A DNA stretch of 64,000 nucleotides, taken from Eudorina sp. 2006-703-Eu-15 (lineage: Eukaryota; Chlorophyta; Chlorophyceae; Chlamydomonadales; Volvocaceae). Location of the stretch: positions 186,001 through 250,000 of the forward strand of contig BDSI01000050.1 in assembly GCA_003117195.1 (NCBI GenBank), in the 5' to 3' direction. The position numbers and the translations under genes were made by a program. The notes beneath the pieces are model-generated. The model was given only the letters and a program-made list of their open reading frames with translations. It ran no database searches and was not told the origin of the DNA. Shown one piece after another: positions 8,062 through 50,100 of this stretch (position 1 is the stretch's first letter; every line of letters begins with the position of its first letter).

Positions 8062-8653
8062 ATGAATGGCTGCCGCGATTGTCGTCATCGGGCATTTCCT
8101 GTGATTTTGAAACGCATCGCAGTCGCGCCCAGGACCGCGATGCAACACAGCGAGGGCGGCCGGCATCCCCGCAATGCCGCGCTGGGCGGCGGCGCGCCGA
8201 CCCACGGGTCGGCGCCACCGCGGCCTGCTGCTGCCGGCGAGGACCCTACGGAGCTGCTGGGTGGTCTCCACGGCTCCGGTGGGGAGTATGAGGTGGTGGG
8301 GCCGACAGACGCGGGCGCGGCGTTGGGCTCTCTGGCCGGGTCGTTGATCGGTGAGGCGCCCCGGGGGTCCTCTGCGGAGGAGGAGGGAGAGGTGCGCTCC
8401 GGAACCCCACTCCTACTGCGGTTTCGCTGTCAGCCGGATGACAGCAGTAGGGAGCGGGCAATGATATAGCACACAGTGCCGCCGTACAGAGATAGCGACA
8501 CTGTCGTACTTGCGTGTCGTACAGGCTCGCTGGGTGCGGGTGTGGCGGGCGCGTCGCCGGGCGCCTCGGCCGCCGCGGTGACGGGCGCTGCCGGGATGGG
8601 CGCCGCGCTGGGTGCGATGCTGGGTCACAGACTCGGCGGAAGCCCCAGGAAAC

Positions 8654-8686
<33 letters not shown>

Positions 8687-9546
8687 TTGACGACGCGCTC
8701 GACGGCGGTGATGTGCCGCTGCTGGGTGATGAGGTGCGCGGGCTGATGTGATGAACTGGCTGCTGCGTTCCAGTAGGTGGTGTGTTTAGAGAAGAGAGAA
8801 AACCCGCCCGACCCAAACCAGTTGGGTGGTGTGTGTAGGGTGTGTGTAGGGTGTGTGTAGGGTGTGTGTAGGGTGTGTCTGCTTCTGCCAGTGTGTGCCG
8901 GCGTCCCGCGTCCTCAGGCCGACAGACAGACCTGTACGGCAACCCTTGTGCCGTATGTGCCACGATTTCGGCGGGTACGGTAGGAGGCCGTACACACAGC
9001 GAACGGCTGCAGCACGGCAGGGCTTTTGTCGCGCGTCTTGCCCGCGTCGAATAAAGCATGGTCGGCATTGTGACACGCGGTCTCCTCAGAATTCTCAGAC
9101 GCCCAGCAGGGGAGGGTGTGCAGCGCCCTCCAACCGCTGGTGTCTGCCCCGTGTCCTCTCTTGCCTGTTTCCACTTACCCATCGCTTCCGTCCAGCCTCA
9201 CCCCAAACCTAAAACCCCAAACCTAAAACCCCAAAACCCAAAACCCAACAAGCTCATCCGCCGTGCCTCTCCCATCTAAACACCGGGCCATGTCGTACAT
9301 AATACGGCACATTGCAACCGCCAGGACGTGGCCATCGAGCGCGCCAGCCGGGCGGCGGAGGCGGCGGAGGCGGCGGAGCAGCGCGCGGCTGCTGGAGAGG
9401 CCGTGGCGACCCGTGGGTCGGAGGAAGAGGCGGGCGGAGCCGCCCCTGGAGCGCCGGAGCTGATCGGTTTGCAGCCGCTGTGCGAAATGGGCGTGAATGC
9501 GGGGATGTACCTGGGGCACGGGCACTCGGTGGCGGAGGCCGAGTGA
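8062..9546 (+). CDS. Glycine-zipper-like protein of unknown function, 3 exons
   Basis: Function not recognised. Exons 8062-8350, 8525-8733 and 9325-9546 join in phase (720 nt, 239 aa). Donors are GTGAGG and GTGCGC. The alternative start at 8140 gives 213 aa and is equally possible. The middle is rich in small-residue zipper spacing (GSLAGSLIGGSLGAG, then GMGAALGAMLGHRLGG). This is typical of glycine-zipper or GxxxG segments that pack in or on membranes. It is followed by a basic SPRKR and a Gly run. The last exon gives a short Ala/Glu helix (AAEAAEAAEQRAAAG) and ends with GMYLGHGHSVAEAE. No signal peptide is clear. If the intron after 8733 were retained, a stop at 8749-8751 would truncate the protein. 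Confidence 0.6.
8826..8877. repeat. GTGTGTAGG tandem microsatellite
   Basis: About five units in intron 2 of the glycine-zipper gene, directly after a copy of the GTTTAGAGAAGAG repeat family. Confidence 0.9.
9200..9248. repeat. Telomere-like CCTAAAACCCC repeats
   Basis: Degenerate units of CCCCAAACCTAAAA and CCCCAAAACCCA in intron 2 of the glycine-zipper gene. They resemble the C-strand of green-algal telomeres (CCCTAAAA or CCCTAAA) but are not exact. Confidence 0.6.
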
Positions 9547-9804
9547 CCCGTGGGTCACCGTCCGGGGCGTGGTACGATTGTACGGCTGTACGGAGGCTCG
9601 CACCAGGGCGGCCTCATCATAAAATTCCTGATGGCGTGAATGTGGACAGTGCGGCTCGGGCAAGGAAGGAGATGTTTCGAGTTGTCGAGTAGGGCACCGG
9701 AGAATGGTATGAGTGACGAGGCTGGCCATTTGTCGTGTGGTCTGTTGTGACACGCAGCCACTTGTCTATGACGGCTGGTGATCTGACGGCAGCCTGCCTC
9801 GGTG

Positions 9805-9809
9805 TGTAA
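9805..9809 (+). terminator. Candidate TGTAA poly(A) signal of the glycine-zipper gene
   Basis: TGTAA about 260 bases after the stop codon at 9544-9546, on the coding strand. Confidence 0.45.
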
Positions 9810-12648
9810 ATTTACGTAATGTTGTTCGCATTCGCACGCATGCCTGTTAACACCGCGTGTTCGCCTGTTCGTGTCTTTGGTAATCACACCGTGACTGACT
9901 GACTGATTGAAAAAATGACTGACTCAATGCCTGCCTGCCTGACTGACCGAATAAAGGAATGTTACAGCGGACCCCGCAGCGGAATCATCGGTGCACGACT
10001 AACAGGTGTGCACCTGTGCACCGAAACATACCCTCCCTCCAGCGCCGGCCGCAACCGACCGTGACGCAACAGCTCAGCTTTATTCAAACACTTCTACCCC
10101 GCGCAGACAATATTTCGACAACGGCGCACTGCACTGCACTGCTGCCCCCGCACACAACTAGCGAACTAGGTGTGGGCCCATGTATGAATGAATGAACGTT
10201 ACAGCGGACCCCAAAGGGATGACGCGCCCTAACGGCCCATGTATGATGCTGCGTCCATTTCCTGGATCTCACTCGCTTTGGGTCCCCACAGTAATTGTAC
10301 TGCAGGCAGGTACGTACGTGCGGCAAAACCGGATAGAGCGTGTATCGTGGCCCGAACGTTCGCTTCCAAAATTTCACACACAGGAGCAGAAGCGAGGTAC
10401 GGCCCCCCAAGCAATAAGCAAAAACGATCCCCACCCAGCCAGCAGCCCACACGTACGGAAAACACCTCTCAGTTAACGAAACCCAATCAAAGCTCCTGCG
10501 CACATACAGCTATTGGGCCCCGCGCCTCCATCCACAGGCCGGTCGTCGACTTGCTTGACTCCCGCCGCCCCGCGTACCCCCGCCCCTCCCCCCAGCAGTC
10601 ATCAGGGAGGGATCGTTAGCAGCCACAGCCACACACAGGCACAGCTACATGCACAGGTAGACCTGCGGGACATCGCGACCACAGATGCGTACCTCAATGC
10701 CTCACCGATCCGAACTGCTACTGCCACGTACGTACGACTGCTACTGCTACAGTCGGAGCGCCTACGTTGGTACCAGACATACGTACAGATAGAGCCAGCA
10801 GAGACCAGATACATACAGCCGACCCAGCTACCTGCTGATCAATCATGAATCGATATCATGACACCTGTCGTACAGTACGGCTACGTACATACTGTACGGT
10901 GTACGACGACGTTGTGCGCTCGATCCCGGCCCGGCGGCAGGCAGGCTGTTCACGCACAACAACGAAAGCCCGCGCTTTCCGCAGATCTATCTTACCATCA
11001 TGACATGTGTGCAGGACAATTCAACGTAACAACAACTCTTATCGCTATCACTTGGTGCGCCGTCAAGGAGCGCCGGCAGACTCCTCAGAATACACTATCA
11101 CACACAAATATACCTATAATTATCACTCCATCCGTCCAGAATGCTACCACGCACGTCCAGAGGGCCGACGGGCGAGTTGCGGGGGGTTGCTTTGAGGGTA
11201 GGTTGCTTTGAAGGCAGATGGGGGAGGAGGATGAGCGGGTTGTCCGATGGCCGGCGGCAGGCCACGGCCCACAGGCCACGTTCATCAGCGAGCGAGAAAC
11301 CCTAGGCGCCCGGACCGTCCACCAAGCAAGGCGGGTGTGAGAGTGCGTGTTCGTGATCATGTGTGTGTATATGGACTGCCGTACAATCACCACGCACGTG
11401 CGGCGGAGCACACATGTGCGGTACATCTAATGAGTGGCTGGACGTGACGTACAAGAAGAATAAGAGAGGGATACAGACCAATCCTGACCACTCTGACAAC
11501 ATTATCACATGCAACAATAAAATCTATTTGTTACTAAACTGATCGACTATCGGTCATACATCACCTGTGTATCCGGCCGTGGCAACTGGCGTACGGGCGT
11601 CGTGCCCCGCCCCGCCTGCTAATGAGCGCATACATGTAGTAATAGTGTATAGTAGATAAGAGAGATGCTTCCTCCCGACTGACTGACCGACTAACCGATT
11701 GACTTACTGACTTTCACAGCAGGTTCGAAACCAAGCAAACTGCTCATACAGATACGACCCGACCTGCGCTGCTGGCTGCCCGCCTACCGACTCTCCAAGC
11801 AAGGCGACACGGAAGCGCTGTCCGATCCGCCGGCGGTGCGTGGATGGACGCACGACGGCGCGGTCCGTCGCCGTGTGTGTACGAACAATTTCAACCGCCG
11901 TACTCTGCCGTACTGCGTGGACATCCCAGACAACCCAGCCAAAGCTGATGAAGCAAGTTAGGCGCGGGGCACCTCACATGCATTTCGGCGCGTCGGACGG
12001 ACTAGCTAGCTAATGGCAACCCACTACTATGATCAACAACGCGGATAGCTGCTGCTGCTGCTGCTGGATAGCCCCTCAAGCTTCTGATAGCCGTACACAG
12101 CAGCCAGCTAAGCCAGCCAGCCAGCAAGCCGCCCGGCGTACGTCATTCACATCGGCAGGTCTCCGCCGCCTGCCGCGCGCACGGCTGCTACATACATACG
12201 GTACCACGCAACGTGCAACTACCGTGCAACTACCGCGCAACGAATTGGAACTACCGTGCAACTACCGTGCAACGAACGAACGCGGGCAGCTCATCATCAG
12301 GGCACTACCTTCAGAGGACAGATCATACATAGCTGAGTCATACTGCCATACGTACGGACAATCAACGAAGATCGATGGCGACGGGCACGCACTGAGGCTG
12401 TACACCGGCTGAACACTCACTATGGAGATGAAAGCAAGCAAAAATGTACTTTACTTCCCGCTCCCTCCCTCCTGAAAGAGCCCGCCTCTATCAACGCGGC
12501 TGCTGCTGCGTCGTCAAACGCCATGAATTTGTGAAGGCTATATATCTATCGTACATAATATGCAAAGCTTCGTCATGTTTGAACGGAATTTCAGCACCAC
12601 CGTGCACAGCACAACCCTGTTCCCTGGATGCGCGGACAAAACTCCAAT

Positions 12649-12653
12649 GGTTA
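12649..12653 (-). terminator. Candidate TGTAA poly(A) signal of the PUF gene
   Basis: TTACA on the + strand, so TGTAA in the direction of the PUF gene, about 390 bases after its stop codon. Confidence 0.35.
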
Positions 12654-12946
12654 CAACCATCTCATGTATCGACGACTAGCTAGCTGGCAACTGCCCACCC
12701 ATACGCTACAGGCAATAAGCGCAACTAACATTCGCCGCAGAAGCATCGCCAGCAAGCTGCATTGCAGGCTGCAGGCAGGAGCAGCAGCACCCGCAGCATC
12801 AGCAGCAGCCGTACGCACAGGCGCAGATAGACAACCCGCATTGACTGATCGCCGTACATAGCCGTACATATACCTGCCACTGAAACAGAGAAAAGGAGCT
12901 GCTGACGCCCAAATTCGCACCGTGTCGCAGCATTGTGATTGTGCAA

Positions 12947-13015
12947 ATATCGTACAAAGACCGTACAAACATCGTACAGACACCGTACAAGCAAGCAAGC
13001 ACCGTACAAGTATAT
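12947..13015. repeat. CCGTACA heptamer cluster
   Basis: Five CGTACA cores within about 65 bases, with further copies at 12852-12872. A perfect tandem of four CCGTACA units occurs at 14597-14628, in the last intron of the PUF gene. Confidence 0.7.
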
Positions 13016-13042
13016 ATCACGCACCTACCAGGACGCAGCAGC

Positions 13043-13937: not shown

Positions 13938-13968
<31 letters not shown>

Positions 13969-16900
13969 TGGCACTACCGTTACCGACGCCGGCGCTGGCC
14001 AGCAAAGGACTGCAGGACCAAGGGGTCGCGTTCGCTGCCTTGTCCGACGGCGACGTGGACAGGGGCGGCGGCGGCGGCGGCTGAGCCGGAGGCAGCGGCG
14101 ACTGCTCGGCATTCAGCAGTACGGACGGATCCGCCGTGATTTCCTGCGGCGGGTTGTGGGGACGAGCGCGAGCGCGGGAGCAGAGCCGATGTGAACTCGA
14201 GGGCGCGATCTCTTGAGACGATACGGTAGTGTACGGTGGCAGCAGCGCGGTCCGTACGACACTCAGACCACAAGGGGCAGGCAGTACGGCAGCTCGGTCT
14301 TGCTGGCATGGATTACCGACTATCGCTGCATGCCCCATGTATGGGTACGGTATGCGCTTGTGTACGGACGGAGGGAGGGAATGACCAGCGCCTGTGTGTG
14401 CGTGTGTGTGTGGGTGTGCCGTACGACGTGCCTCCGTACCTGCAGTCTCGCCAGCAGCGCCGCCATGCCCGGGTGGTGACTGGCGGCGCAGCGGGCGGAC
14501 AGCTCGGGGATGGTGGGCAGCAGCGCGGCAGCGACACGTGCCGTCTGAGCCGGGTTGCACACCTGCGGGGGGTCGGGGGCGGGACCGGAGGGGTTGCCGT
14601 ACACCGTACACCGTACACCGTACACCGGGAGTGCTCTCGTGAGAGCAGCCGGGTCGAGGCCGCTGAGTCCCGAGTCCGGGTGGTGGCCTCGGGCCCCTTG
14701 AAACCTTAGGCCTCAAGGTTATCAATGGCAGGCGGTGATCAACGACAGGGCCATTCCCAATTTCCCACAACACAGCGCCTCCATCCCGCCCCGACTCTGT
14801 CCCAAGACGTCCCGTCTTCCTGACCCACAGCCCTCCGACCCGGGGTTCCCTCCCTCGCTCTTTCCTCATGACGACGAGGACAGCGGCGGAGGCTCCACAC
14901 AGCTCCGCTGTCCCCGCAACGATACCGTCGAACCCTCACGAGTGTGTTTAATATTATATATGCAGCCCGCCCGAGTGTGTGTGCCCTCTCCGTCGTGCGT
15001 GAGTGAGTGAGGGCCCATAGGCCGCGGACCGCATCGCCACAGCTCCGCGTCCCAGGGCCGCAGGCCCTCCATCGCCGGCAGTGCCGTACGGTACCTCACC
15101 TGGAAGCACCGCTGCAGCACGTAGTTGCCGAAGGGGTCGCAGGCCAGTCGCAGCGCCCGCGCCACCGTCGGGGGGCCGGGGGACGCCACCGCTGCCACCG
15201 CCACCGGAGGGGGGTAGCCGTCGCCGTCAGCCACGGACGCGTTAGGGCCCCGGACGCCGCCACGACTGGGCGGCGGCGACGAAACCCCGCCGCCTACAGT
15301 AGTCGCCGGAGGCGCCTGCAGTGTGTGGGGATGTGTGAACACATCGGGCAGCAGCAGAAGTAATAGCAGCACCGTAGCAGTGGCAGCAGCAGCAGTAGCA
15401 GCAGCGGCAGCAGCAGTATTAGCAGTAGCAACAGTAGCAGCAGCGGCATAGTGGGGCAAGTGCGGCGGTTGGGCCACGATTTACACCTCCACCACCGCTC
15501 GGCGACCAGATAGGAACTGAGGTCACGACCCATGGGTCATGCAGCACCGAAGTGTGCTGGGGCAATCCGTAACGGTACGTATTGAATGTCGTACATCTAC
15601 TACATAGCTCACCCCAAGGAGGGCCGTCAGCATCAGCTCCCGGTCGCCGTCGCTGCCGTACTTCAGTACGGCCTCCAGTACGGGGCTTCCGTGGCGGCAG
15701 CACGCCAGCCGCACGGCGTGGGGCGCCAGAGCGGCCGCCAGCCCGGAGCGCACTCCAGGGGCGGCGACCTGTACGGCGGCGGCGGCGGAGGAACGGACCC
15801 GGCGGCGGGTGTGTGCCACATCGCCCGGGGTGCGGAGTGCGGAGGCTGAGCGTCCCCTCAATCACAACCCGGCACCCACGCCCAGCCGTACATACGACGA
15901 TTGCCGTACATGTCATTGCCGTACGGTACGCAGCAAGTGGGCACCATGTTGTCCGTACCCCCATATGTCGACAAGTGCAGCACCCCCTCGGTGCATCGGG
16001 TCCGCTGTAACATCCCTAATCATTAACCCCTCGTGACTCACCACACTTGCTGTTTGGGAAACAGTCGGGAGGTCACCTAGGGAGGTACGGCGCATCGGGG
16101 ACCGCCGACAGCGCGGCCACCACCCGATATCCTAATCAGGACACCGCACCGGTCGGTGCAGCTCACAGCTCACAGATGGACTGGCACCTGGCTGTCACAG
16201 CAACCCGCCCACAGGCTCCCTTCCTCCCCCGCCCCGGATAAATAGACCGGGACATCCCCGGCATAAGGATGGATGCGCCCGCCACCGTCGCTCCGCCCCC
16301 CGCTCCAGGTGTGAGGTGAGCCACGCGTCGGCCGTACCTGCGCCAGCGTCTGCATCACGTAATTGCCGTACTCGTGACCGCCCAGCTGCGGCGCGTCCTG
16401 TCGGGGCCGCCAGACGGTGAGGAGGGTCACCTCGTTCTTGGGGTCTCAAAAAGAGGGGCCCTCGACCTTTTTATAGCAGAAACTAGATCTACTTGTGGAT
16501 GACTTGGTAAAGTGTTAAGTGTAGGCAAGAGAGGGACATCTCCATCATCAGCACCCGCGCTCGGTCGTACAGGCGATACCGTCAAACGCAACGCCGGTCA
16601 TACAGACGTGACGCTCACCAAACTCCTGACCGACCAACCGACACACCAACCGACACGCCAGCCGCCGTATCTACCTGCAGCAGGTCCCAACTGATGGCCT
16701 TCCAGCGCTCCGCCTCGCACACTGTCTGCAACAGCGACTGCACCAGTCGGCAGCCGTACGGATGACGAGCCAGGGAGGGCAGCGCCGCCTGCAGGAACAG
16801 CCGGATTGCAACGCAGCCGTACAGCCGCCCGTACGACACGGGGAATATATCAGTCCGAAGGCTATCGGTATACGGTCAAAAAACAGGCTGTAACTTGTAC

Positions 16901-17884: not shown

Positions 17885-17916
<32 letters not shown>

Positions 17917-20900
17917 CCCGCAGCCCGCAGCCCGCAGCCCGCAGCCCGCAGCCCGCAGCCCGCAGCCCGCAGCCCGCAGCCCGCAGCCCGCAGCCCGCAG
18001 CCCGCCGCCCGCCGCCCGCCGCCCGCCGCCCGCGCCCGCCGCCCGCAGCCCGCAGCCCGCAGCCCGCAGCCGCAGCCCGCAGCCCGCAGCCCGCAGCCCG
18101 CAGCCCGCAGCCCGCCGCCCGCCGCCCGCCGCCCGCCGCCCGCCGCCCGCAGCCCGCAGCCCGCAGCCCGCAGCCGCAGCCCGCAGCCCGCAGCCCGCAG
18201 CCCGCAGCCCGCAGCCCGCAGCCCGCAGCCCGCAGCCCGCAGCCCGCAGCCCGCAGCCCGCAGCCCGCAGCCCGCAGCCCGCAGCCCCGCAGCCCCGCAG
18301 CCCGCAGCCCGCAGCCCGCAGCCCGCAGCCCGCAGCCGCAGCCCGCAGCCCGCAGCCCGCAGCCCGCAGCCCGCAGCCCGCAGCCCGCAGCCCCGCAGCC
18401 CGCAGCCCGCAGCCCGCAGCCTGCAGCCCGCAGCCCGCAGCAGCCCGGAGCCCCGCAGATGTGTGGGGCCCAGCCACCCGAACCGCTTCGTGTCCGGCCG
18501 CGAAACCCGCCCCCACCCCGGCCCCCCCCGCCCCGCCCCCTGACCCCACCTTGTCCCGCACGCAGCGCATCACGGCCCCATCCAGCTCCACGACGGCCGC
18601 AGCGGCCTGCTGCTCCGAAACCACCTGCGGCAGCGCCGTCCAAAGAACTAATGAAAAGTACTTTCATTATATAAAATAAACATATACTTATACATATATG
18701 AACTTACTTACAACAAAATATGAACGTAGCTGTAGGGTTCGGCTGTAGCACCCATTCGTTCAGTCACCACCCCAAACCCAACAAATGGTACTGACAGACG
18801 TGTAGTAAGCAAGTCACTACTGTACGGCGGCGAGTCCAGCAAACGGGGCTTCTGCAGGACGGTACCTCCAGCAACTTCTGTACGACACGACAGCCGTACG
18901 GGTCGAAGGACAGCTCCAAGATGCGCCCCGCGAGCGCGCCGCACAACCGCAGCTTGTGGCGTGAGCCGCCTGCAGTGCAGTACAATGCAGTCGAACAGTA
19001 CGGTACAGTGCCGCAACTGTGACAATCACTCATCCATGCATTGTACTACCGGATATTGTGTTGCAGGCCATGCAGGCCGCTCAAATCCGCTGATGTCGCT
19101 TGATGTCCAATCCCCTGGAGTGCGCCCGGTCCCCACTCACCAACTGTCATCAACTGCTGCAGTACATAGTTGCCGTACGGATGACACGCCACCTCCATGA
19201 CGCTGGGCAGCAGCTCGTCCAGACAACGACCCACCTGAGGAGCCCTCCCCCCCGGGCGTGTACGGACAGTACAAGGGACGAGTGACGTACCGTACGGCCG
19301 CAGGACCACATTCGTACAACAGCGCTGTAAGCCCGCAGCGCTACACACCCACAGTTCCGCAGTGTCGCAGCCGTGCAACGCGCCGGGCCGAATGCCATGA
19401 TTGGAAGCTAGGATGATGATACAAGTTTTACACAGATACAGAAACAAACATGTTCCTCAAGGTATTTGAGAATAGGGCCCCTCCGAACTTTATTATAAAG
19501 GATGTTACTTTATTATAAAGGATGTGACACTGGGCCCCGCGGTTCATCGGCGACAGCCGTACAACCGACCTTCGCTGGAGTGTGGGGACGGGGAGGCGTG
19601 GCGGTGTGACCCATGGGTCGCCCCCACTCACCTGCTCGCTCTGCGCCGCGCACAGCAGCCTCTGCACCACCCGACTGCCCTGTTGGTCGCAGCTGAGTGA
19701 CACCAGCCGACCGAAGAGGGCCTCAAGGCGCATGCAGCCGCCGCCGCCGCCGCCGCCGCCGCGACCGCCAGCGGCGCCTCCGCCGCCGCCGAAGCCGAGG
19801 TCGCTCGTCGTAAGAAAGCTCCTGCCTCGCTCCCCGGCGTTGCTGCCGCCGTACAGCGGCGGCGACGGCGGAGGGTTGGACAGGGGCGACGCGAGGCCGC
19901 CGCCGATGCCAGTGCTGTACAGGTGGTGTGGCGGCGACGGCACGCCGTACGGCGACTCAGCGCCGTCCAAGAACGGCCAACCGCCGGCGCCGTCGGCGCT
20001 CAAATAGAACCCGGACGACCCATCGAGCGGGCTCTCCTCCGTACGGCATCCTCCGTACGGCAGCAGGGCCCCCAGGTCGATGTCTGAATACGGCTTCAGT
20101 ACTGCCGCGCTGTCGTGCATGTCGTACAGGCAGGTGGCTGTAGCGGAGGCTGTAGCAGCAGCTGCAGCGCCGTTGCCCGCCTGCGAGCTGGTGGACACGA
20201 CGGCCGCCCCATCGGCGCCGTCGAGCGCGGCGGCCACGGCCGGGGGGAAGTGAAAGGGGTCGGCGGCGTCCGCGCCATCCCCGCCGACCGCGGCGGCCTT
20301 GCCGCCGTGGCTGGCGGCGGCGGCGCCGCCGCCGCCGCTGCCGCCGACCGCTGCACGCTGGCTGAAGAACCGACACAGCATCTTCCCGGCTGGGCTCAGG
20401 GCCGTGCCGCCACTGGCGGAGCCGCCACCGCCCGGGGGCGGTGACGCGGGCGGGCGCACCGACGGCGACGACGGGAGGTTGCCCGTCGACCAGTGCGGCA
20501 TACTGGTCCTTCCCCCGGGGGCGATCGGTTGCCACGGCGGCGGCGGCGCTGCCGGCGCCATGTCATGCCACCAGTGTCGTACATGCTGGCTGTACGGCAG
20601 TTGCGCCGACATGTGATAGTACAGGTTGTTGCCCTGGTGATAGGCGGTGGGTGCAAGGCCCTCCGTCGCCTCCGAGTCGAGCAGATTTCGCTGCCGCCAC
20701 TCGTCCAGGGAGGTCCAGCACTGGCCACCGCCGCCGTGGGCCTTACTGCGGTGGCCGCCGCCGCCGCCGCCGTTGCCTGGGCCGTGCCCTCTCGGTGGTG
20801 GCGGCGGAGGCGGCGGAGGCGGCGCGACAACCGCCGGCGGCCCGGCCGGGGCGGCAGCCGCCGCCGCCGCCATCCAAAGCTCTGCATCCGGGGTCCTGTG

Positions 20901-25186: not shown

Positions 25187-27469
25187 TCACCGCCGCTGCG
25201 GGGACCGGGACCGGCTCGGCGCGCACGGCAGCTGCACCTTGGCGGCGGCGGCTGGGGCGGACTGCGGCTGCTGCTGCTGAGGCGGCGGCGGCTGCTGCTG
25301 CTGCTGATGGCTCACGGCGGGGCGCTGTGGTGGTGGCACGAGGGGCGGGTGCTGTGAGGGGTCCTGAGGGGCCGGCTGCAGCCTGGCCTGCAGGCTGCGC
25401 AGGGGCGACTGCACCCGCGGCGGAGGCGGAGGCGAGGGCTGCCGCTGTCCGTGCTGTGACGGCGGCGGAGGCGCCGGCGCCTGCGGCTGCAGCAACGCGT
25501 CGTCGCACAGGCCGCACCAGCGGTCGAGCTGCTCGATGATGGTGTTGACGTTGACGCCGTTGCCGCGCGCTGCGCCGTCGTACTGTCGTACAATGGGGTG
25601 CGGCTGGAGCTGCACCACCAGCGGCGGCGATGCGCCGTCCCGCCGTGTCACCAGGAGGTCCGATGGGTCGGTCGTCGTACCGACCGCGACGGTGCCGCCG
25701 CCGCCGCCACCCACGCCTTCGGCACCAGCAGCAGTCGTGCCTTGCTGCCGCCACGACGGTCCCGACGGCTTCCCGGCAGCGGCGACCTTTTTAACACGCC
25801 GTACGGCATCTTTCACAGTCCGTTCCGCCGCCGCGGCATGGTCGGCCGCCGTCACCGCGGCCCGCTGCGCCGCCTCCGCCGCCACCGCCGCGCGCTCCGC
25901 CGCGGTGGCGGCGGCGCCCACCGCCGCGGCGCGCTCCTCCCTCTCGAGCTCCGCCGCCGCCGCCTCGGCGCGCGACGCCGCGGCGGCCGCCTCCAGCGCA
26001 CTCACCTCCGCCGCCATCTGGAGCAGCGACTGCTCCAGAGCCGCCAACGCCTCGGGATCCGAATCCGACAGCGCACCCCGAAATCCCCTGCTCAATGAGC
26101 GCCGTTGGCCCCGCCGTCGGGGCGACGACGAGCTCCTGCGGCCCCGACCGCGGCCGTCCTTCTTCTCCTTCTTCTTAGCACTGCCTGCGGCTCAGCGCGG
26201 GTCGGCGAGTTCCCGGTTAGTGTCAGCTAGAGATAACTGAGCCGCGAGCAGCCAAGTCCAGGCGCCAGGCCAGTGTCGGTCAGTGTGGTGTCAGTGTGGT
26301 GTAGCCGCAGCAGTGCCAGGGATCGCACGTCCCGGGTGAGGTAAGGTCGGGTCAGATGGGCGGCACGGGTCAGATCGGGTCGGGTTCGGGTCGGGACAGG
26401 TCAGGTCGGGTGGGGCGGCACGGGTGTGGGTGCGGTCGCGGCAATGGTGAGCGCAGACGTCCAGTCGTGCCCCGACCCCTCGTCCCACCGCAGCGACCCG
26501 GCGCCCGACGGCGACTTGCCTGACCCACGGGTCCGTTTGGCCTTGACCCGCCGCCCGGTGCGGAAGGCCAGGCCGTTACGCCTGGGCGTCTTCTTCCGGG
26601 CGATGCTGCTGCTGCCGCTGCCAGCAGCCCCCACGGCGCCCCCGGTCCTGGCTCCTCCGGGGGCCCGGCGGGCGAGCCCCCCTACTGCGCCCGGCGAGGC
26701 GGCCGATCGGGTGCTGCTGCCGGTAAGGGCGGTGGGGCGGCGCCGCGAGGTGGTGGTGGTGGTGGTTTGGTGCCGGGTGGGTGTTGCCGGTGACGGCGAT
26801 GTGGTCGTCCTCCTGGTCCGGATGTGATAGCGACGGCCGCGGCCACATCCGGTGGCGGCAGGGGATGGGGGGGAGAGGGGCCAGGGGGCGAATGAAGCTC
26901 GACAAGGATTTCCAAGAGCAGGACAGGCCCAAGAGGAGACAAGCTCAGGGGGAGACAGGATATGGTTCCATGACGTCCGTTGTATCCTTGCTTCCGGTCC
27001 GCGGCACACCGGGAGTTACAAGCGCCAGAAAGGGCCTGTGGGCTCAGCCACCAATAGGAGGACATATTCAATCCCCGCTTTCATTGGTAAGTGTTTGTCG
27101 CCGGACTAGGTGTGTCGGTCTGGGCTGTTTTTCTTTTTTACCCCCTCTTTAATCAGCTTGAGTATGTCCACCAAGTATCTTGCACCCTAAACCCTTCCAC
27201 GTACCGCACCTGGATCCGGATCCGGGGCGGGAGCGCGTCGGCGTTGCTCGGGGGGGCGCGCGCGAGCGGGAACGCGGCGGAGACCGGCCGCGGGGCGGAG
27301 AGCGGGACGCGGAGCGCGGGGCGCGACGGCCGCCGGCCGCCTTGGGCGTGGAGGAGGGCTGGCGGCGCTTCAGCCCCGCCCGGCCGCCCCCGGGCCGCCG
27401 TACCGTCCTGGACGATGACCTGCGGGGAGCGGCAGCACACACCCACCGTGGGCGTTGGGGAAAGGTGAG

Positions 27470-34186: not shown

Positions 34187-34196
34187 CGTGCGTGTG

Positions 34197-34263
<67 letters not shown>

Positions 34264-35022: not shown

Positions 35023-35056
<34 letters not shown>

Positions 35057-38132: not shown

Positions 38133-41100
38133 ATGGACAATCCATCGGGGCTCGCCTCCGAATGCTGGGGGCGCCAGTCCCCATCGTCGACGAAAGGTCC
38201 GTGGTTGTTTGTGCATTGTCGGTGCTGAAGACCTTGTAAAATGTTAGGTTTTGCCGGATGCACCTGCGAGTGTGTTACAGGGGCGGCCGACAGCCGCCGC
38301 TGTTCACAGGCCGTGGGCAAAGGGCCGTCACGTCACAAAACATTTCAATACCCGCATTTTTGCTTTGTAGTAAACTTGAAGTCGCGGCGACGCTTGCGCG
38401 TGACCTGGTCGCTGCCGCATCGTCATCGCTGCCACCGAGCCTCGACGAGCCACCGCTGCCGGTTCTCGCGCATTACTGCCGCACGCTGATCGAGTGGACG
38501 GTCTCATGTATCCTCAAATCGAAGCCCCCGCCGCCGCAAGGCGCCGGCAAGGCGCAGCAGCGCGCGCCGGCCTCCGCCAGCGGAGGTCCCCAACGGCAGC
38601 CAGAGCATGTCGCCGCCGTCCCCGAGGTAAGTAACCAGAAGCATGTGCCGCTCCTGAACGTCATGATCTCCACCCATCGCTTGTCCCTCGTCAATCGGCG
38701 CTCCCATCTTGATGAGTCCCCCGTTACATGGGTGGCCCCTAGAGTCCCGACCCGGCGGGGAGGGAGCCCCCGGGTGGTGTTTAGATAAGAGACCCGCCCG
38801 ACCTGCCCGCGGGTGTTTAGATAAGCAACCCGCCCGACCTGCCCGCGGGTGTCTATGAACCGATGCTCAGGCATGTCGGCGCAGCCATTGAACCACCTCT
38901 CCTGGCAATCGTTAGGATCGTCAACGACACGGCCCCGCCCCAAATCCTTCGGCTCCCAACCGCCTCCATCGCCGCCCTGCCCGCCTCGTGCGAACCTTCG
39001 GCGTCGGCCGACGATTCAACCTCCAATAGCCTGTACGGGTAAAATCGCTGCACGGCACCGCAAACTCGATTGCCTGCTGTGCCCCCTTGCCAGCCTCCGA
39101 GGCTTCCAGACGGGCTGGACGGTCAACTCTGCCCCTATCCTCATCCGCCTCCGCCTCGCCCACCTTCCCCCTCCGCGGCCTCCCTAGGACCACCTCCCAA
39201 GGACGCTGCGACTGTGGAGCCTGCTGCGGCTGCTGCTGCAGGGTGACCCGCGGGTCGGTGGGTCGCCCGCCGACGCCGCGGCGGGCAGCAACAGCGGCGG
39301 CGGCGGCGGCGTCAGCCGCCGGAGCAGTGCTGCCACCACGCTGGCACTGGCAGGCCAGGCGGCGGGCAGCATTTCGGGCGCTCTGCTGGTCAGCGCCGCC
39401 ACTTGCCTCCGCCAGGCGTTCTCAGCGGCTGTGTCTCAGGCTGCTGGGTCGGTGACCACAGCATCTGCACAGCCAGCTGAAGCAGGGACCCTGGAGGGGC
39501 GCGCCGCTGCAGCATCATCGGCATCGGCATCGGCATCATCCTCGCCTGTACCTCTGGCCGCGCAGCTCGCTCAGTCCGTCCTCGGCTGTTTCGAGGTCTT
39601 GATGGGTGGCGGCGGCGGCGGCGGCGACCCAATGCGGCCGTCCCTGGAGCAGCTGGTGACGCTGCTGACGGCGCTGTTGGATGTACGGCCGCGCCGAAAC
39701 CAGCACGGGGGCGCGGGATCTGGCGCTCAGGCGGCGGCTGCGAAGCGCGAGACCGTCGGCACCGCCCCCGCCGCCGCCACCGCTGTAGTTGCTCCAGGCG
39801 ACACGGACAAGAAGAAGGGCAGCAAGAAGGGCCGTAAGGACCGGCGGGAGGAGGAGGAGGAGGCGGTGGCTGACGCGCCGCCAGACGCTTTCGATGGCAG
39901 CCAGCGGGAGCAGCTGGTGGTCTGGGACGCCGCGCCGGCCGTGGTGGTCGCATGGGCCCGGCTGCTCGTGCACGTGCTGCATGTGACCCATGGGTCAGTG
40001 CAGGGCCACCCGGCGCCTCGGAAGGTCTGGCGGGCGTTCGTACCGGAGCTGGTGCTGCCCCTCCTGGAGGTGTCGCAGCCCCTGGAGCCGCTGTCCGCAA
40101 CGATGCAGCTGGTGTTGGGGGCTCAAGGGGGGGCAGTGGCGGCCGCGGCCGCGGCAACGACCAAGACGGGGGGCGTGACGGCGGCGCCGGTGACGTCGGG
40201 GGACGACTGCGGTACAGCAGCGGCAGCGGCGGCGGAGCTCGGACGTGCGGCGCAGCAGCTGTTGGGCGCCGTACTCTTCCAGGAGGCCCACGTGGGAGCC
40301 CTGGCGGAGGTACGGCGGTACGACTTGCGTCAGGAGGGGGGCTGTCAGGAGGGGACTCGGGAGGCCGTCGACGCATTCACTGGGGTGATTGGGCGGAGCA
40401 CGAAACCCACCCTGCCGTACGGTTGCACGTCGGGCCCCCGAGTGCTGAAGCTCCTTCTCCCAAGTGTGTATTGGTGTGTGTTATATGGGCACGCAAGACA
40501 AGCAGTGTATGTGAGCTCGTAGGCAGGCAGAGCAGGGAAGCGTGACATGCAAGGGGCATAGCTAGGCCCGGAGTAGATGTGTGCGTGTGTTCAGCAATAA
40601 ACCCGCCCGACTCGAATCAATGACCATTATATATACTTATTACCATAAGAACCCATGCCATTGATATATCGTGTCAAAACAACAACGGGACAAGGGAGCT
40701 GCGCCACCACCGGGCTGAGCTGTGTGCGTGTATGTGTATGTGTGTGTTTAGAGAAGAGACCCGCCCGACCCCAACCAAGCACCATAATAACCTGCAAATG
40801 CAATGTGTGTATGTGTGTGTCCCCGCATCTCCCGCCCCGCAGCTGTTCGCCGCGTTGCTGCCTGGAACCGACTCGAGCGGCGCCGGGGGAGCGGGGGGGG
40901 CGCCCGCTACCGCAGCCGCTGACGGCACTGCTGGGGGCGGCGCCACTACCGAGCCGGCAGGGACCGCGCCATCAGCGGGCGGAGAGGCGGCAGGCGGCGG
41001 CGGCGGTGGCGGCGCCGTGCCGGAGCAGCGGCGGCTACTGCTGCCCGGGTTCGGAGACCACGTGGGTCGGTGCTACCACGGCCAGCTACTCCAGGTGGGG

Positions 41101-44100
41101 CTCTCCTTGACCCATGGGTCCATCGTCCATGCTACAGCCTCTTAACAGCAATTAATAAACGTGACACGTGAATCCACTTTGTAACTACCCTTAACACCCT
41201 ACAACCCCTAAAGATCACTTGACTCGACCCTTACGTTAGGGTTCCGTTGTCGGTCGGTGCGCTGCAGGTGCTGGCGACGGCGGCGGCGGCTGACGGCGGC
41301 GGCGGCGGCGGAGCCAGCGGGCCCGGCGGCGCCGAAGCAGATACCGTCACCGTTCTGGGTCTGCCGTGGCTCCTGCGGGGCTACTGCCGGGCTGTAGCAC
41401 GATTGCGGCGGAACCTGACGTCCGACGCCGCCGTGACGGCGGCGGCGACAGGCGGCGGCAAGGGTCAGCGGCGGGCCGCGGGCGAGTCGGATGGCGTCCC
41501 AGCAGCGGCGGCGGCGACCGGGAACGACGAGGACGGCGGCGCCGCCGCCGGGGCGCCCTCGCATAAGGCCCTCGCGGCGGCGGAGTTTAACTGCATGACC
41601 GTCCTGTCGTACATGCTGTTGCAGCCGCCGCCGCCGCCGCCGCAGCTGCCATCCGGCGGCGGCGGCGTGGACGTCGCGGCCGGTCGGCCGGCGAAGCGGC
41701 GGAAGGTCGTTGCCGCCGCCGCCGCCGCCGCCGCAGCGGCGCCGTCAGCGCCCGCACCGGCGGCGGCGGCAGAGGTCAGCTCCAGGGGATCTCCCGTCCT
41801 GCGACTGGCGCTGGCGGGAGTACTGGCGGCCGGCCGGGTGCGTGTCCTGACGGCCTGTGTGTTTGTGGATCTCCGTACATGGCCGTACTGCAGCCCGGCT
41901 TGAGGCATCATATGCCTCATGCCTGGAACGCTGGAATAGCGTGCGCCCCCGTGTGCCATGTGGTGCCATGTGGTCGCGCGGAACCTCACCTCACCTCCCT
42001 CCCTGTGGCCGCCTCCCACCCAACTCGCGCCTACAACCCCGCCCGCCTCAGGCCGCGGGAGCCTACCAGCCCACTCGGGACTTGACGGGAGCAAACCGTG
42101 CCGTACTGGCGGTGATCGCGGACCGCCTCCTGGCGGCGGCAGCGGCGGCGCCGCCAGCGCCCGACGCAAAGCCGGGCAAGCCCTCAGGAGGCAAGGAGGC
42201 CGCAGCAGCGGCAGCGGCGACGTCGTACGGCGCGCGTGGACGCTCGTACGGCACGCTGCGTTCACTGAGCACCTCGCTGGCGCTGTGTGCCGTACTGGAT
42301 CTGGATCACAGGTGGGTTTGTACGGACGGAAGGCCGTGGAGGGCGCGGTCACGTGTGACCCGCCGGTAACCGACTTAACGGTGTACTCTCTCGTGTTGTT
42401 TCCTGGCCAAGGGCTTGCGGCGCAGTGTGGGCGGCTGCGCGGTTCGGGGTGCGCTTGAGCTGGAGGTGCAATGCAGCGCAGGGATCCGTACGATATTTGC
42501 CGTACTATGGTGTGGAGCAGTACGGCATAAAGCACTGCGTACTGCGGCACTGGTTGCAACCCCCCCTGACGCACTGCACCATGCGGTACCCGCTCGATGT
42601 CCTCGGTGCACCACCGAGGTTCATATTGCAGAGGGGACAAGTCGTCAAGACCCCGACCCTGTTTGTGTATAGAGAAGAGATCCGCCCTGTTTGGTTAATG
42701 TGCCGTACATCCTCCTCGTCCGTACCCGTCGTACCTGCCGTACCTGTCACAGGGTCCTTACGCCCCACCTGGAGCGGGTCTGGTCCCTGCTGTGGAGCAC
42801 TGCGGGAGGGGACGCAGCGGCGGGGCCGTCCGGGGGCCAGATAGAGGATGCCGGCGGCGGCGGACACGACGGCGGCAGCGGCGGCGACGGCAGTGCTGCT
42901 GCCAGCTCCGCCGTCACGGCGGCCCCGGCGGCGGCCGCGGCGGTGCTACAGCGCACCCTTCGCGCCTTCTCAGAGCTGCGGCAGCTGCAGTCGCTGCTGG
43001 AGTCCCTAGGAAGGGCGATGAGGGCCGTGTGCGGCGGCGGCGGCGGCGGCGGCTCAGCGGATTGCGGCGTGTACGGCGGTGTGGCGGCGGCGGGGCTGCT
43101 TGTGCGACCCGAGGTCGTGGCGGCGCTGCGGCAGGCGGTCACGTCGGCGCCGTCGGGTGAGCATCCCGGGGGGTCCCGTGGGTTGGAATGTGCCCATACC
43201 GGCCTATGTACGGTACCCGTACGTGCACGTACACATTCGCACCAAGCCACGAACGATAGATTTCTACACCAATGCAAGCAGCGCATCGACGCATGACGCG
43301 GATACGGAGTCTTTCCTGGTCGTCAGTCACATGTACGGGAGGGATGGAGCGGGTGGAGGGAGGGTGGTAGCTTCGCCAAGTCACAATTTGTTGCGGTCCT
43401 AACAATTCGCGGTCGCCGTTGTGGGCCTTGTGTCCTGCCGTACCGGATGGCGGGTTGCAGGTCAGTTTCCGGCGCTGGTCAGCTGGGTGGCGGCCGACCT
43501 GCAGGCCTGGTGCGAGATCGCCCAGGTGACCCGCGGGTCGGTGGCGCATGTGGCGGCGGCGGCGGCGGTCGCGGACCTGATGCTCGCCGCAGGCACATTG
43601 TACGACACTCTCCTGACGGCGCTGCGGCTGGATCTGGCGACGGCGTCGCCCGTGGCGAGGGCGAATGAGCAGCTGCTGGCGGCGCTGGCGGCGCCGCTGC
43701 TGTCGTCCGTACGGCAGTACTGCAAGTCCAGGCGGGAGCTCGCTGGCCGCGCCGTTGTCGACGACGCGTCGGAGGTCCTCGCCGTGCAGCTCCACACGGC
43801 GCGGCTCGCAATGCTGCTGCGAGTGTACGGAGCTGTCGTACGTACGAACGCCGTGTGCTCGGGGATACATCCCGAGATACAGCCACTTCCGGAGCAGAGC
43901 ATACACCCAGAGCGAGATGTGAGAGGAGGCAGACGAGGCATATGCTGTGTCAATGGTGACCCATGGGGCGGTGCTGCGTCAATAGTGACCCATGGGGCGG
44001 TGCCGCGTCAATAGTGACCCATGGGGCGGTGCCGCGTCAATAGTGACCAATGGGTCCGCACCGTGTCGTCAGTGACCCATGGGGCGGTGCCGTGTCGTCA

Positions 44101-47100
44101 ATGACCCATGGGTCGGTGTCGTGTTCCCTGGACGCCCGGCCCTCTGCGAAGAACGGCGCCGCTGTCCCCGACCCTCTGGTATCTGCAGCTCGCCAAGATG
44201 TCCGCCATGACGTCTTGATTGCCATGGCCCCCTGGTTCCATCATCTACCAGGCATATTTACAACAACCTGTACGACCGTTCCCTTGTACGACAGGGATCT
44301 CACGATGGTGGATACCTCGCGCCAGTGCTGATTCGCGGGGTTGCGGCAGCAGCGCCCGACGGCGACGCGGCCGGCGACGCCGTCCAGGAGTGTAGGGACC
44401 TACGTAAGGCCCTCAAAAAGGCCGGCAGTAGTGACGAGAACTCGAGGGCGGGGCTGTTGCCGGCGCTGGCGCAGCTGACGCTACTGCCAGCGAACGGCCG
44501 GCTGCAGCAGCCGCCGGCGGCCGCGGCTGCGGCGGCGGATCCCGGCGGGGCTCCGGAGGGGGAGGCGGTGGTCCGGGCGGGTGGCTGGGCAGCGGTGGAG
44601 CTGTCGCGGGCGGTCCATCGGTGAGTGAGTGTGTGTGGGTGTGGGTGTGGGTGTAGGGGGCCTGCCTGGAGTGATCCGAGATCGATAGCATCAGCTTACC
44701 GTACTTACAAGCGCTTTTCGTCGGTTAAGGCGGGTCACAACAGTCAGTGTACGGCTACGAACGGTTAGGAGGGTCAGGAGAGGGCCAGGAGGGTATGAGG
44801 GTATGAGGTTCATCGAGCCCTACCGCCGACACCAGCCAGTGCCGTACTTGTCCGCCGACAGCCGCCCCTGCCGTACCTGTCTGTACCGCACCGCACCGCT
44901 TTCCTTTTCCCCCAGGTGCCTGGGTCACCGGCTGCAGGTGCTGCACGAGCGAACCCTGCGGCGCCGTCACACATGTCCACTGTACGGCAAGGCTGCGGCG
45001 GCCGCGGCGGCGGCAGAGGAGGAGGCGCAGGCGGCGGAGGAGGCGCCGGCGGAGGTGGAGAGGGAGGAGCTGCGGTCTTGCGTGGCGCTGGTGCTGTCGC
45101 CCTTCTCGCCCTTGACGAAATCCAAGTCAGGAGGGTATCCCTCGGTTGGCGGCGGTGGCGGTGGCTCGGCGGCGGCGGCGGCAGCAGCTGTGTCGTACCA
45201 AGCGGACGCCTGGACTGACGTGCTGGCGCTGATGGGCTGCATAGGGCCCTGGGCGCGACGAACGACCCTGACCGAGGTGCTGCAGCTGGCGCTGGTGGCG
45301 GCGTGTCGGGAGCGTACGACAGCTGGTACGGCACTCACGACAGCTGACCGCTCATTCCCATGGCCGCGTCTGCTCCCTCCCGTCAGCGCGTCCACGTTGA
45401 GGCTGCTGGAGTTTCAAGGTCTGCCTGGAGTACGGAAAGCGCTGCCGTACGCTTGGGCCGCGTCGGCGGCGGGGGCGGTCCGCGACCTGGCGTCGGAGGT
45501 ACGGCGGCTGACGGCGGCGCTGGGTGGTACGGCGGGGGTGCAGCCGGAGGGCGGGCGGCCCTCCAAGAAGGCGAAGAAATCCGATGGGTCGATGCCTGCG
45601 GCGGGCGATGACAGCGGCGGCGGCGCCGCCGCGGCCGCGTGCGAGAAGCGCCTCGACATGCTGCTGGACGCAGACACCGACGCGGAGTCATCGTCGGCGG
45701 CGGAGGGTTTCGACAGCAAGGTTTCTACCAAGGCCGTCCGACGCTGCATGACCAAGCAGATCGAAGCATTCGAAATCGTGACGACGGGCTTCGACAAGCT
45801 GTGCGGCAGTGGCAGCGAACGCGGCGGAAGCCCCGACGCCGCGGCCGGCGGCGGCGGCGTCCCGGCCCCGGTCACCCGCGTCGCCGCGTCCGCCGCGTCG
45901 CTGCAGTCCATCCTCGCGTTCCTGTACGACAGGATGTACTTGGATCTGATCCCGCGCAAGGCCCGCGGGGAACTGGCGCGGCAAGTGGCGGCCGCCGCCG
46001 CGATCGTCCTGGATCTGCTGATTTTGGCGCGGTACCGCCCCGCGTCATCTGCGGCCGCCGCACCTTCGGACCAACATCAGCTGCAGCAGCTACAGCTACA
46101 GCTACTGCCAGCCAGATGTGAGCTTCTGGCTGTAGCCCTGGGGTGCCTCCGCGCCTGGCACCGTCTTGCGACCGCGTACGGCAGCGAACGCGACGGCGGC
46201 GGCGACGGCGATGAAGGCGGTGGCGACGACGACGGTGGCGAGTTTGCCAGCCTGGGCGGCAAATGGGCCGGCGCCACCGGCGCCGGCGGCGTGGCGGGAG
46301 ATGTGGACACTGACCCACGGGTCAAGTGGCTTGTGGGCGCATTCCGGCTGCTGGCGGCGGAGGCCGAGGCGGCGGACAGGGACGCCGCCGCCGCCGTGTG
46401 CGACCCGGCGGTGCCGTCACGGCAACCGTCGCCGTACTGGGTACGACAGCGACCGTTACTGAGCCTGGAGGTGGCGTACTGCAGCGGCCAGTTGCTCACG
46501 GCGCTGCTGGCGGCGGCGATGGGCGGCGGCGCCGGCGGCGCCGCCCCAGCGGAGACCCCCGAGTCCGTGACGCGAAAGAAAGGTAGAAAGGCCCTTGGGA
46601 GACTCACTTCCCCGTCGGCAACTGTCGGTACATCATTTGCCCATCGCCGAGGCGGCGCCAGCCTGCGCTGTACCTGGGCCCGTATTTGCCTTTGTTAGGG
46701 ACCGCTGCAAAGCAAATGGTGATACACACATAGTTAACGCATCGGCGGGAACTGTTGGGCACTGCTATGCCCATCGGCCATCGCACATCACGCCCGCGCG
46801 CCTTGCCCGCCCACGAACACATATGACACCACACACCCTCGGCATTGAAGGGCTCCGACGTCGCTCCCCCGCGGTTCGCGACCCCCGCCTCGCTCCCAAC
46901 TAACCACGAGTCCAGTCGCTGCCGGTTCATTTCCATTTGCTGAGCTCTCCAGCCCGCGCGACAAAAGCTCCCCCACACGCACTCGACGCCCTCGGAACTG
47001 TACCTGAACCGCAACCGCCTCCACGACCGTGTCGGTTGGGTCGCGCAGGCAAGAGCCGCGGCGGGCAGGTCCACCCCGGCGGGTGGGACGTCCCCACCGG

Positions 47101-50100
47101 GCTTCTCCTGGCGCACAGCCTGCTCAAACAGGCGAAGGCAAAGGCGGCAAAGGCGGCGAAGGCCGCCGCCGCCGCCTCGACGACCTCGCCCGCAGAGCGC
47201 GCGCTGTTCTGCCGCCTCGGACTCGCCGCGACGGAAGCGGCGGCGGCGACGGCTGCCGCCGCCGCCACTCCTGGCGTGTACGACCTCGGCGCCGCGCGTA
47301 AGGCCCTCGCCCGCGTTGGCTCGCTCTCAACCAAGCTGCTCACCTCCCCTGGCATTGGCGCCTCGGCGGATGCCGCGGCGGCGGCGGCGGCGGCGCCGCC
47401 GCCGCCGAATCAGACGCCGTCGCTGGATGCCGTACTTGCAGTACGCGCCGGGCTGTGCCTGGTGGGCTGTCAGGGTCGGCTTCTGCAACTGTCGGCTGCT
47501 GTCGCAGCGGGGGCTGGGGCTGGGGCTGCCTCCCCTGGAGCTGCTGCTGATGGTGGTGCTTGTGCCGTGACTGTACGGAAGACCGCGACGGGCGCACTGA
47601 CGGGAGAGCACATGCCGCTGCGGTGTGACGGCCTGACCGACACGTTGCTCCGTGCCGCCGGCTGGGTGGCGGCGGAGCGGGGACTGTACAGCACCCTGAC
47701 GGCACTATCGCGCCGCGGCGAAAGCCACGCAGCGGCAGCGCCGCCGCCTGCAACGGTCGCGACAGAGCCCCTGGAGCATTGCCTGTCGTACATGTACGGC
47801 ATCTCGCAGTGGCTGCCGGTGTTGGGACGCAGCGGCGGCGGTGCGCGTGCGGGGGATGATGCCGACGAAGCGGAGGAGGAGACGGCGGCGGCGGCGGCGT
47901 CAGCGTACGACGTCAGCGCGGGCGGCTCCTCGGCGTCCGACGATGCGCTGGCGCTGCTGGTTGCCGTACAACAGGCGCTGCTGGTCTGTACGGCAGCTCC
48001 CGAGCGCCCGTGCCGCGCCAGGTGAGCTATTCGGCACCTGACCGCACAAGAGACGGGTGGAGATGCGCACGGACGGCGTTACAGGGGGTACCTACGGCAC
48101 CGCGTAACGCGGCTGGCGCCCCGGAGAACGCGTTGGGCCCCACTCACAAGCCTCGTTACCCGCGGCTCAGTTTCCTTCTACACGCATGGGCGGGTTGGCC
48201 ATTAAACACACCCAAATGGCGATGCGTTGACCTCGCCCGACGGTGCTATAACCGCCCCCGCCCGGGGGTTGCTGTTGCGTGCGCCCCGTCCCGGTGCCCT
48301 CATGGCTGTCCCTCAGGACGAGCAACATGTGGGCCGTACTGCTGGCGGATCTGGATCCTGAAGGTGATCGGTTGCGTGGCTCAGGGGGCTTGGGGGGGGC
48401 GCAGATATGGCGAGGGGTTGGCGAGCTGGATGTGACGTACCGAAATCTTTCGGCCTTCGGATTGTCCTCCTCGCTCTTTTCCTTTGGCGGGGATGGGACA
48501 TCACACGTCGCTGTGATGGAGCGCCTGAATCTCGTGTGTGTCTCCAACGTGCCCCCTATCCGCAGGTGCCGGCTTCCTCTCACGTCGTGGGTTGCTGGAG
48601 TGCTTCAGGTGAGTGACTGTGGGAACCCGGGAACGCTACACCCCACTGCCTGTTGTCCGCATGCCCCTCCTCCTCCGCCTCCGCCTCCGCCTCCTCTTGA
48701 CATGTTTTAGCAGGCGCGGTAATCCACCGACACACCGACACCTTATAACCGAATGCAATCCTTGCCTGCTTGGTCCGGGACCACCTTTCCCAACAACACA
48801 CCGAACACACCGACCACACCGACCACACCGACCACACCGACCACACCGCCCCGCCGCTGCTGCAGGTCGACTCTCTGGCGGTGCAACCGCGGCCAGCTGG
48901 GGGCGCTGCTGCGGGGCCTGATGTCGCGACTCCGACCGGAGGGGCTGGTCGAGCCGGGACCTGAGCAGCCCCAGCAGCCCCAGCAGCAGACCCCTCAGCC
49001 CCTCTTCCCCCTGCTGCACTGCCTGTTGATCTCCCTGGAGTGCCTCAACGGCCCCCGCGCCACGAGGCTGCTGGCGGCGCAAGGCCCCGCCATCGTCACG
49101 ACGCTGACGGAGCTCCTGGCGGCGCTGGCGGCGCGCGCCGCCATGGGGGAGAGCGGCGGCGCGGCGACGTCGCCGGAGGTCGGCGGCGGCGGCGGCGCGC
49201 GCCGTGGCGAGGAGGAGGTGGAGGTGGTGGCTTGCTGCGCGATGCGGTGTCTGCAGTCGGTTGCGGCCCGGGAGGTGACGTTCCGGCTGGCGGCGCCGGC
49301 GGTGACCGGCGTGCTGTCGGCGGTGGTGGCGGTGGCGTCGTGCCCGCTGCTGCGACCGACACTGGCCCATGGGTCAGACTTGTATTTCCTGCACGCGTCG
49401 TGCTGCGGCCTCGTCGCCGCCGTCGTACGGCACCATGAAGGCGTTGTACGACATTGCGCCGCACTGGTGGTGAGCGCGTGTCGGGAGCTGCTGCTTCGGC
49501 TGGCGGCGTGGGCGTCGGAGCTCCGCGCCGCGCAGCGGCAGCTGCAGCTGCAGCTGCGCGCGTCGCCGGCCGCGTCGGCGTCGGCGGCGGCGGCCACGGC
49601 AGTGGCCGCCTCCGTCGACGGCCTCGAGCGCTGCGCGGCGGCGCTGGCCCGCGTGTACGAAGCGGCTTCGGAGCACCCCAAAACCCTCGGCAAGTACGCC
49701 CCGCACATCCTCGCCGACTACATCGTCCATGTCGCGACGCCGCTGCCCTCCCTGGCGCTGCTGATGCACGCCGACGACACTGACCCATGGGTCATTAATG
49801 TCTCGGCGGCGGCGGCGGTGGCGGCAGCCGCGGGGCCCGTCGCTGATTCCGCCGCACAGGCCGGGGACGTCGGCGCCGGTGGGATGGGTGGCTTCGGCCC
49901 AGCGATAGAGGCCAGCGGCGGTGGTCCAGCGGGTGTGGGCGCTACACTCCTCCCCCAGGGCGCCCATGAAGCGTTACGGCAGGGCGCCTACAGCCTGATG
50001 GCCTGCCTGGGGCCGCCCCAGCTGCAGCACCTGCACATGGCCCTAGGGGCGGGCGACGCGGCGGCGGGCAGCGCGGGGGCGGCACGGCGAGCGGCGCTGG

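Follow-up and report, generated by a model that had tools for sequence, protein, structure and literature searches.

Introduction

The DNA uptake sequences of Neisseria and the Pasteurellaceae are short words with thousands of genomic copies; they serve transformation and are not palindromes of the kind described here. The sites of CTCF-like insulators and genome-wide factors also number in the thousands, with graded information and conservation. In cyanobacteria, the palindrome HIP1 (GCGATCGC) is extended in some genomes by flanking bases that preserve the symmetry, and HIP1 one-off sequences, on the description given for them, show most of their deviation at the outer positions (PMC4390886). 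Volvox carteri has organelle palindromic repeats. These are described as averaging 50 nt, as lying in introns and intergenic regions of the organelle DNA and as folding into hairpins whose short loops are of the TTTA type (PMC2670323).

Here we analyse a 12-bp palindrome, GACCCRYGGGTC, in a volvocine nuclear genome. It resembles the DNA uptake sequences in that a short word is present in thousands of copies genome-wide, but differs from them in being palindromic. In comparison with CTCF-like sites, the present sites do not avoid coding sequence and the protein that would read them is putative. The palindrome is like HIP1 in that a single palindrome recurs in very large numbers throughout a genome (PMC4390886), but it lies in a eukaryotic nuclear genome, has a 12-bp bipartite core with an RY spacer, and has a mean density of one perfect copy per 22 kb. 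With the organelle repeats of Volvox carteri, some of which have nuclear copies, it shares the dispersal of palindromes in a volvocine alga; however, the present site is 12 bp long, has no loop and occurs in exons as well, and identity with the organelle palindromes was rejected because their structure, as described, is different (PMC2670323). The motif was not found in searches by exact sequence and by topic (green-algal palindromic motif, insulator) of open-licence PMC text; one spelling had no exact match there, and six further spellings matched three papers on unrelated topics.

Abundance of the palindrome

The window, i.e. the whole 64,000-nt stretch of DNA that was analysed (C50:186001-250000 of a 181.2-Mb genome in 3,033 contigs), contains 14 perfect copies of GACCCRYGGGTC, against 0.04 expected from 100 dinucleotide shuffles, in which the maximum was one (Table 1). 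All 14 had been listed by the initial annotation, 13 of them exactly where we find them and the other at 5934 rather than 5932; the near-copy that it reported at 49364 is also real. It had further proposed a genome-wide count and a codon-preserving control, and both uphold the excess. Genome-wide we counted 8,230 copies, compared with 87 of the reversed pattern used as control, so that one palindrome occurs far above chance throughout the genome, as HIP1 does; YGACCCRYGGGTCR by itself accounts for 4,594 copies (27 in the control). Summing the excesses over control gives very roughly 17,000 recognisable copies, of which ∼8,100 are perfect, the estimate being rough because the reversed control is imperfect.

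The codon nulls were run on 11,502 coding bases from three genes that had been picked for having copies: an SGNH-domain-type gene (L011), URB2 (window 38-50 kb) and a THADA-like gene (C2). These bases contain 10 copies, whereas shuffling synonymous codons with the peptide kept gave a mean of 0.55 (maximum three in 2,000 shuffles) and shuffling the codon order gave a mean of 0.008 (maximum one in 2,000). The GC-rich genome and the frequency of other GC palindromes in the window might suggest that base composition, codon usage or repeats produced the excess as an artefact; however, the dinucleotide shuffles, the genome-wide control and both codon nulls rule this out, and we attach next to no probability to it.

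Table 1. Copies of the palindrome and the motif-centred array in the window
Position	Feature	Reading in the window	Relatives
5932..5943	Perfect copy, GACCCACGGGTC		
8199..8210	Perfect copy, GACCCACGGGTC	Open frame PTHGSA	
9408..9419	Perfect copy, GACCCGTGGGTC	Open frame ATRGSEE	
9545..9556	Perfect copy, GACCCGTGGGTC	Overlaps TGA stop 9544-9546 of frame ending 9543	
15527..15538	Perfect copy, GACCCATGGGTC		
19608..19619	Perfect copy, GACCCATGGGTC		
26522..26533	Perfect copy, GACCCACGGGTC		
39245..39256	Perfect copy, URB2 exon	GDPRVG	GDPRV also in Pleodorina and Volvox carteri
39985..39996	Perfect copy, URB2 exon	VTHGSV	Pleodorina VTHGSV; C. incerta AAHACV, ungapped
41109..41120	Perfect copy, probably URB2 intron		
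43528..43539	Perfect copy, URB2 exon	VTRGSV	Pleodorina ATHGSV; V. africanus QTHGSL
43949..44118	29-bp tandem array around motif, ∼5.9 units	Perfect copy 44103-44114 and five one-mismatch copies	
46312..46323	Perfect copy, URB2 exon	TDPRVK	Gonium EDPWVGW
49364..49375	One-mismatch copy, GGCCCATGGGTC, arm position 2		
49782..49793	Perfect copy, URB2 exon	TDPWVI	Pleodorina NDPWVM; V. carteri SDPWVI

The window has other features of composition. A second palindrome, CCGTACGG, is enriched in it (14 copies compared with 1.66 expected), with nine copies within 15084-20060 and the others scattered to 50594. There are also a long CCCGCAG tandem array (∼144 copies) at 17439-18441 and a long CGGGT tandem array (∼124 copies) at 53138-53757. 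Between 56001 and 64000 the GC content drops to 51%, from ∼60-73% elsewhere, and the translation of a minus-strand frame at 61894-62586 resembles a chitinase of glycoside hydrolase family 18 (FLNQGCDPNKVIMGIPFYGR).

Architecture of the site

With the two central positions left free (NN), 9,368 copies were found genome-wide (control 387); the RY centre makes up 8,230 of these and non-RY centres the remaining 1,138 (control 300). When spacers of 0-12 bp were counted together there were 15,619 copies and 4,913 in the control, and without the 2-bp spacer these numbers fell to 6,251 and 4,526. The excess is therefore concentrated in copies whose spacer is 2 bp long and reads RY, i.e. the site has dyad symmetry and a fixed spacer.

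The tolerance of mismatches depends on the position in the arm. Counting both orientations, there were 11,619 one-mismatch copies in all (control 3,133). Arm position 2 was the commonest class (5,984; control 782), some copies differed at position 1 (2,074; control 403) and few at positions 3 (1,009; control 365) and 5 (967; control 572), while position 4 was not above control (545 compared with 811); CCC-RY-GGG is thus almost invariant in the mismatch profile. Copies in which the position-2 bases are altered on both arms showed a modest excess (2,003 against 1,458). The two-mismatch class was not in excess genome-wide (40,045 against 44,598), a count below control which indicates that the reversed pattern overestimates the background, at least for this class.

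Beyond the core, 160 distinct sampled sites showed a base bias that is symmetric at positions -1 to -4 (C/T at -1, C or G at -2, A at -3 and C at -4) and flat at -5 to -7. The flank samples (113 sites, then 160) were non-random, being the first places listed on contigs C1-C5 plus the window, with sites excluded if their flank was shorter than 60 bp or their 52-bp context identical. Since neutral decay would erode all positions about equally and the observed profile is uneven, the copies are not those of an evenly decaying repeat; the profile looks like that of a binding site for a protein dimer.

Genomic distribution and tandem arrays

Copies occur in exons, introns and intergenic DNA, and the exon copies lie in varied reading frames. 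By a codon-usage score, 24.8% of 113 sites were coding-like, compared with 25.5% of 263 offset positions (one threshold; others agree), so that a preference for coding sequence was rejected. The initial annotation had placed copies in introns, at a stop codon and in exons of two genes. The copy at 41109 is most likely intronic, as two orthologues continue with LLQVLA where the query frame gives LLQVGLSLTHGS; the overlap with a stop codon is confirmed for the copy at 9545, and the five URB2 peptides that it read across copies are part of open frames that can be aligned with URB2 orthologues. For the two peptides that it assigned to glycine-zipper exons the open frames are present and the exon status is putative.

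A regular spacing, as for origins, was also rejected: among the matches listed (early stretches of C1, C2 and C5 plus the window) the gaps were irregular (CV 0.9-1.7) except in short tandem clusters. In the C1 stretch, which otherwise averages about one perfect copy per 17 kb, 233 kb of the assembly (G000:C1:1287586-1520852) contain no perfect copy, though one-mismatch copies are present there.

Tandem arrays centred on the motif were seen at four loci and are built of unrelated units, of 20 bp at L151, 20 bp at L103, 32 bp at L128 and 29 bp in the window. Such arrays could arise if a site-specific nuclease or recombinase acted on the motif, by nicking, homing or programmed cutting, and its breaks seeded local tandem repeats; a nicking target was one of the three interpretations offered by the initial annotation. 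The short gaps point the same way, as 18 of 181 successive gaps among the matches listed on C1, C2 and C5 were below 100 bp, whereas the share of 12-mers recurring within 15-100 bp was 1.75% for the window, 1.95% for the 3-kb loci and 0.17% for L110; however, this background is a rough comparison, and one seven-copy array supplies six of the 18 gaps. In addition, five of the six copies in the array of the window are mutated. Cutting targets are expected to erode through repair or conversion, whereas the present sites are kept, and we therefore regard a nuclease target as improbable.

Comparison with an inserted element

The initial annotation had likened the copies to mobile palindromic elements inside genes. 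A palindrome scattered through genes recalls such elements, an insertion of 12 bp preserves the reading frame, and two exon copies in the THADA-like gene are missing from the relatives that were compared. If every copy were an inserted element, however, several of the results would be hard to explain. At 135 solo sites the number of target-site duplications was not significant, either for k=3 (six compared with 3.2 expected, reached in 111 of 1,000 shuffles) or for k=4 (two compared with 0.4, reached in 65 of 1,000), and an earlier test with 113 sites gave a similar result. Among the 160 sites there were 56 flank alignments, of which 47 were within one locus; the nine between loci consisted of low-complexity sequence or of the motif itself. 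The graded bias over 4 bp was the only sequence shared beyond the core, with no common flanking repeat found outside tandem clusters and low-complexity DNA. The mismatch tolerance, moreover, is uneven by position, and most exon copies align in relatives to residues that are already present (8/12 sites in Pleodorina, 6/11 in Volvox carteri) and not to clean gaps, e.g. URB2 VTHGSV stands opposite its C. incerta counterpart without a gap. The duplication test, the flanks and the orthologue alignments led us to reject the mobile-element reading, which we consider very improbable as an account of all copies.

Exon copies in related algae

Protein searches that scored only the candidates sharing most words (∼8,000 each) recovered homologues of the three genes from Pleodorina starrii, Volvox, Gonium and Chlamydomonas, which marks the genome as that of a volvocine alga. 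PF10441 is present in three of the five URB2 homologues and PF10350 in all four THADA-like homologues; the SGNH-type gene was named from two homologue records and had no V. carteri homologue among its five matches. In ten coding fragments, Pfam found a SAP domain in one and a below-cutoff match to MPAB_Lcp_cat in another, with no family in the other eight, which has no bearing on the question of insertion.

In the exons of the query genome all nine tetrapeptides of the forms DPRV/DPWV and THGS/TRGS are encoded by the exact motif. The 14 homologous proteins contain 16 tetrapeptides of the same forms, and all 16 stand at places where the query genome carries the DNA motif: one each in P0001, P0002, P0003, P0007 and P0009, two each in P0008 and P0011, three in P0012 and four in P0006, with none in P0004, P0005, P0010, P0013 and P0014. 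In one case the peptide came first, i.e. DPRVT was noticed in P0011 and P0012 before the query DNA had been retrieved, and this DNA proved to contain the exact motif at C2:443526, a coordinate that was already in an earlier match list without its gene assignment. The swaps between species follow the RY degeneracy, namely TRGS/THGS (H/R), DPRV/DPWV (R/W) and PAG/PVG (A/V). The initial annotation held that the DNA and not the peptide is conserved, and these swaps in the protein comparison support that view; as the relatives were compared as proteins, we infer the conservation at the level of DNA.

Residues encoded by the motif were then compared with those of the flanks at 10 of the 12 exon sites, gaps being scored as mismatches in core and flank alike. 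In Pleodorina 34/39 motif residues were conserved with RY swaps allowed (32/39 exactly), compared with 71/160 in the flanks (p 8e-7). The excess was weaker in V. carteri (23/35 against 61/144, p 0.015) and V. africanus (13/24 against 24/96, p 0.012), and in V. reticuliferus it fell short of significance (11/19 against 38/80, p 0.45); the p values of this comparison are optimistic throughout because the residues of one site are not independent. In Gonium (4/20 against 4/80) the positions were mostly gaps, and in C. incerta (3/20 against 28/80, p 0.11) and C. eustigma (0/15 against 9/64, p 0.19), the two Chlamydomonas species whose homologues were compared, the exon sites are missing at the protein level. 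Conservation above the flanks, at the protein level, is thus clear in Pleodorina. Of the two sites outside these counts, one is conserved in both Pleodorina and V. carteri and the other in neither. Overall, a motif-compatible peptide stands at 8 of the 12 exon sites in Pleodorina and at 6 of the 11 that have a homologue in V. carteri.

Not every site is held. In URB2 the site at 46312 is altered in Pleodorina (DLRV), V. carteri (PPRV) and V. africanus (DPLV), and that at 49782 in V. africanus (DAWG); the V. reticuliferus THADA contains no motif-type tetrapeptide. LTHGSV and GPTGH in THADA (two of the 12 exon sites) were present in none of the relatives compared, in linkers that are poorly alignable, and these two copies may have been gained locally by insertion. 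On the protein alignments, the exon copies appear to be mostly old and mostly, though not always, kept.

This pattern bears on the main rival explanation, in which the copies would be made and kept by a directional process with no use for each copy: this might be biased repair or conversion tied to a putative site-recognising enzyme, like the methylation-linked mismatch repair that has been proposed for HIP1, or molecular drive, with bacterial DNA uptake sequences as its parallel. Such a process would be consistent with copies that are indifferent to coding and lie in all reading frames, and with the linker copies that look newly gained. One-mismatch copies also concentrate at the outer two positions, in agreement with what is described for HIP1 one-off sequences (PMC4390886). 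However, the conservation of particular sites across genera calls for each of them to be maintained individually, and drive would achieve this only for as long as it continued to act. We therefore think a purely directional process unlikely, though one like HIP1 or drive could coexist with a recognition site.

Discussion

We propose, with a probability of about 0.6, that GACCCRYGGGTC is the core of a recognition site for a putative volvocine DNA-binding protein. The initial annotation was borne out in part in this respect, as its suggestion of a conserved protein-binding site is supported by the palindrome, the fixed spacer, the RY centre, the position-dependent tolerance and the conservation above the flanks in the Pleodorina protein, while its mobile element is not. 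The predicted site is dyad-symmetric and ∼20 bp long, (C)(A)(C/G)(C/T)-GACCC-RY-GGGTC-(A/G)(C/G)(T)(G), and would be read by a sequence-specific protein on double-stranded DNA. The reader would probably be a homodimer with one subunit on each half-site, the half-sites being separated by the fixed 2-bp RY spacer; recognition by a dimeric protein would account for the symmetry, the spacing, the tolerance profile and the site-by-site conservation. Selection may preserve the copies for a function that extends over whole chromosomes, in chromatin organisation, replication or recombination; we favour this over promoter control because the copies are located in exons, introns and elsewhere without distinction.

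More tentatively, and going beyond what we would wager on, the iterated palindrome may have arisen in the colonial volvocine algae and been held site by site over genus-level divergence, even in coding exons where it would dictate short linker peptides; the reason would be a protein specific to the lineage that depends on the sites to organise or segregate the chromosomes.

The sequence of an exon is usually accounted for by its protein product. In the present genes, URB2 and THADA among them, a DNA site instead appears to impose the linker peptides (DPRV, DPWV, THGS, TRGS and PAG/PVG). If a single protein does read the ∼8,000-17,000 sites, the volvocine algae, which serve as a model for how multicellularity arose, would possess a factor acting throughout the genome, and this putative protein could be fished out directly, as its sites are known beforehand.
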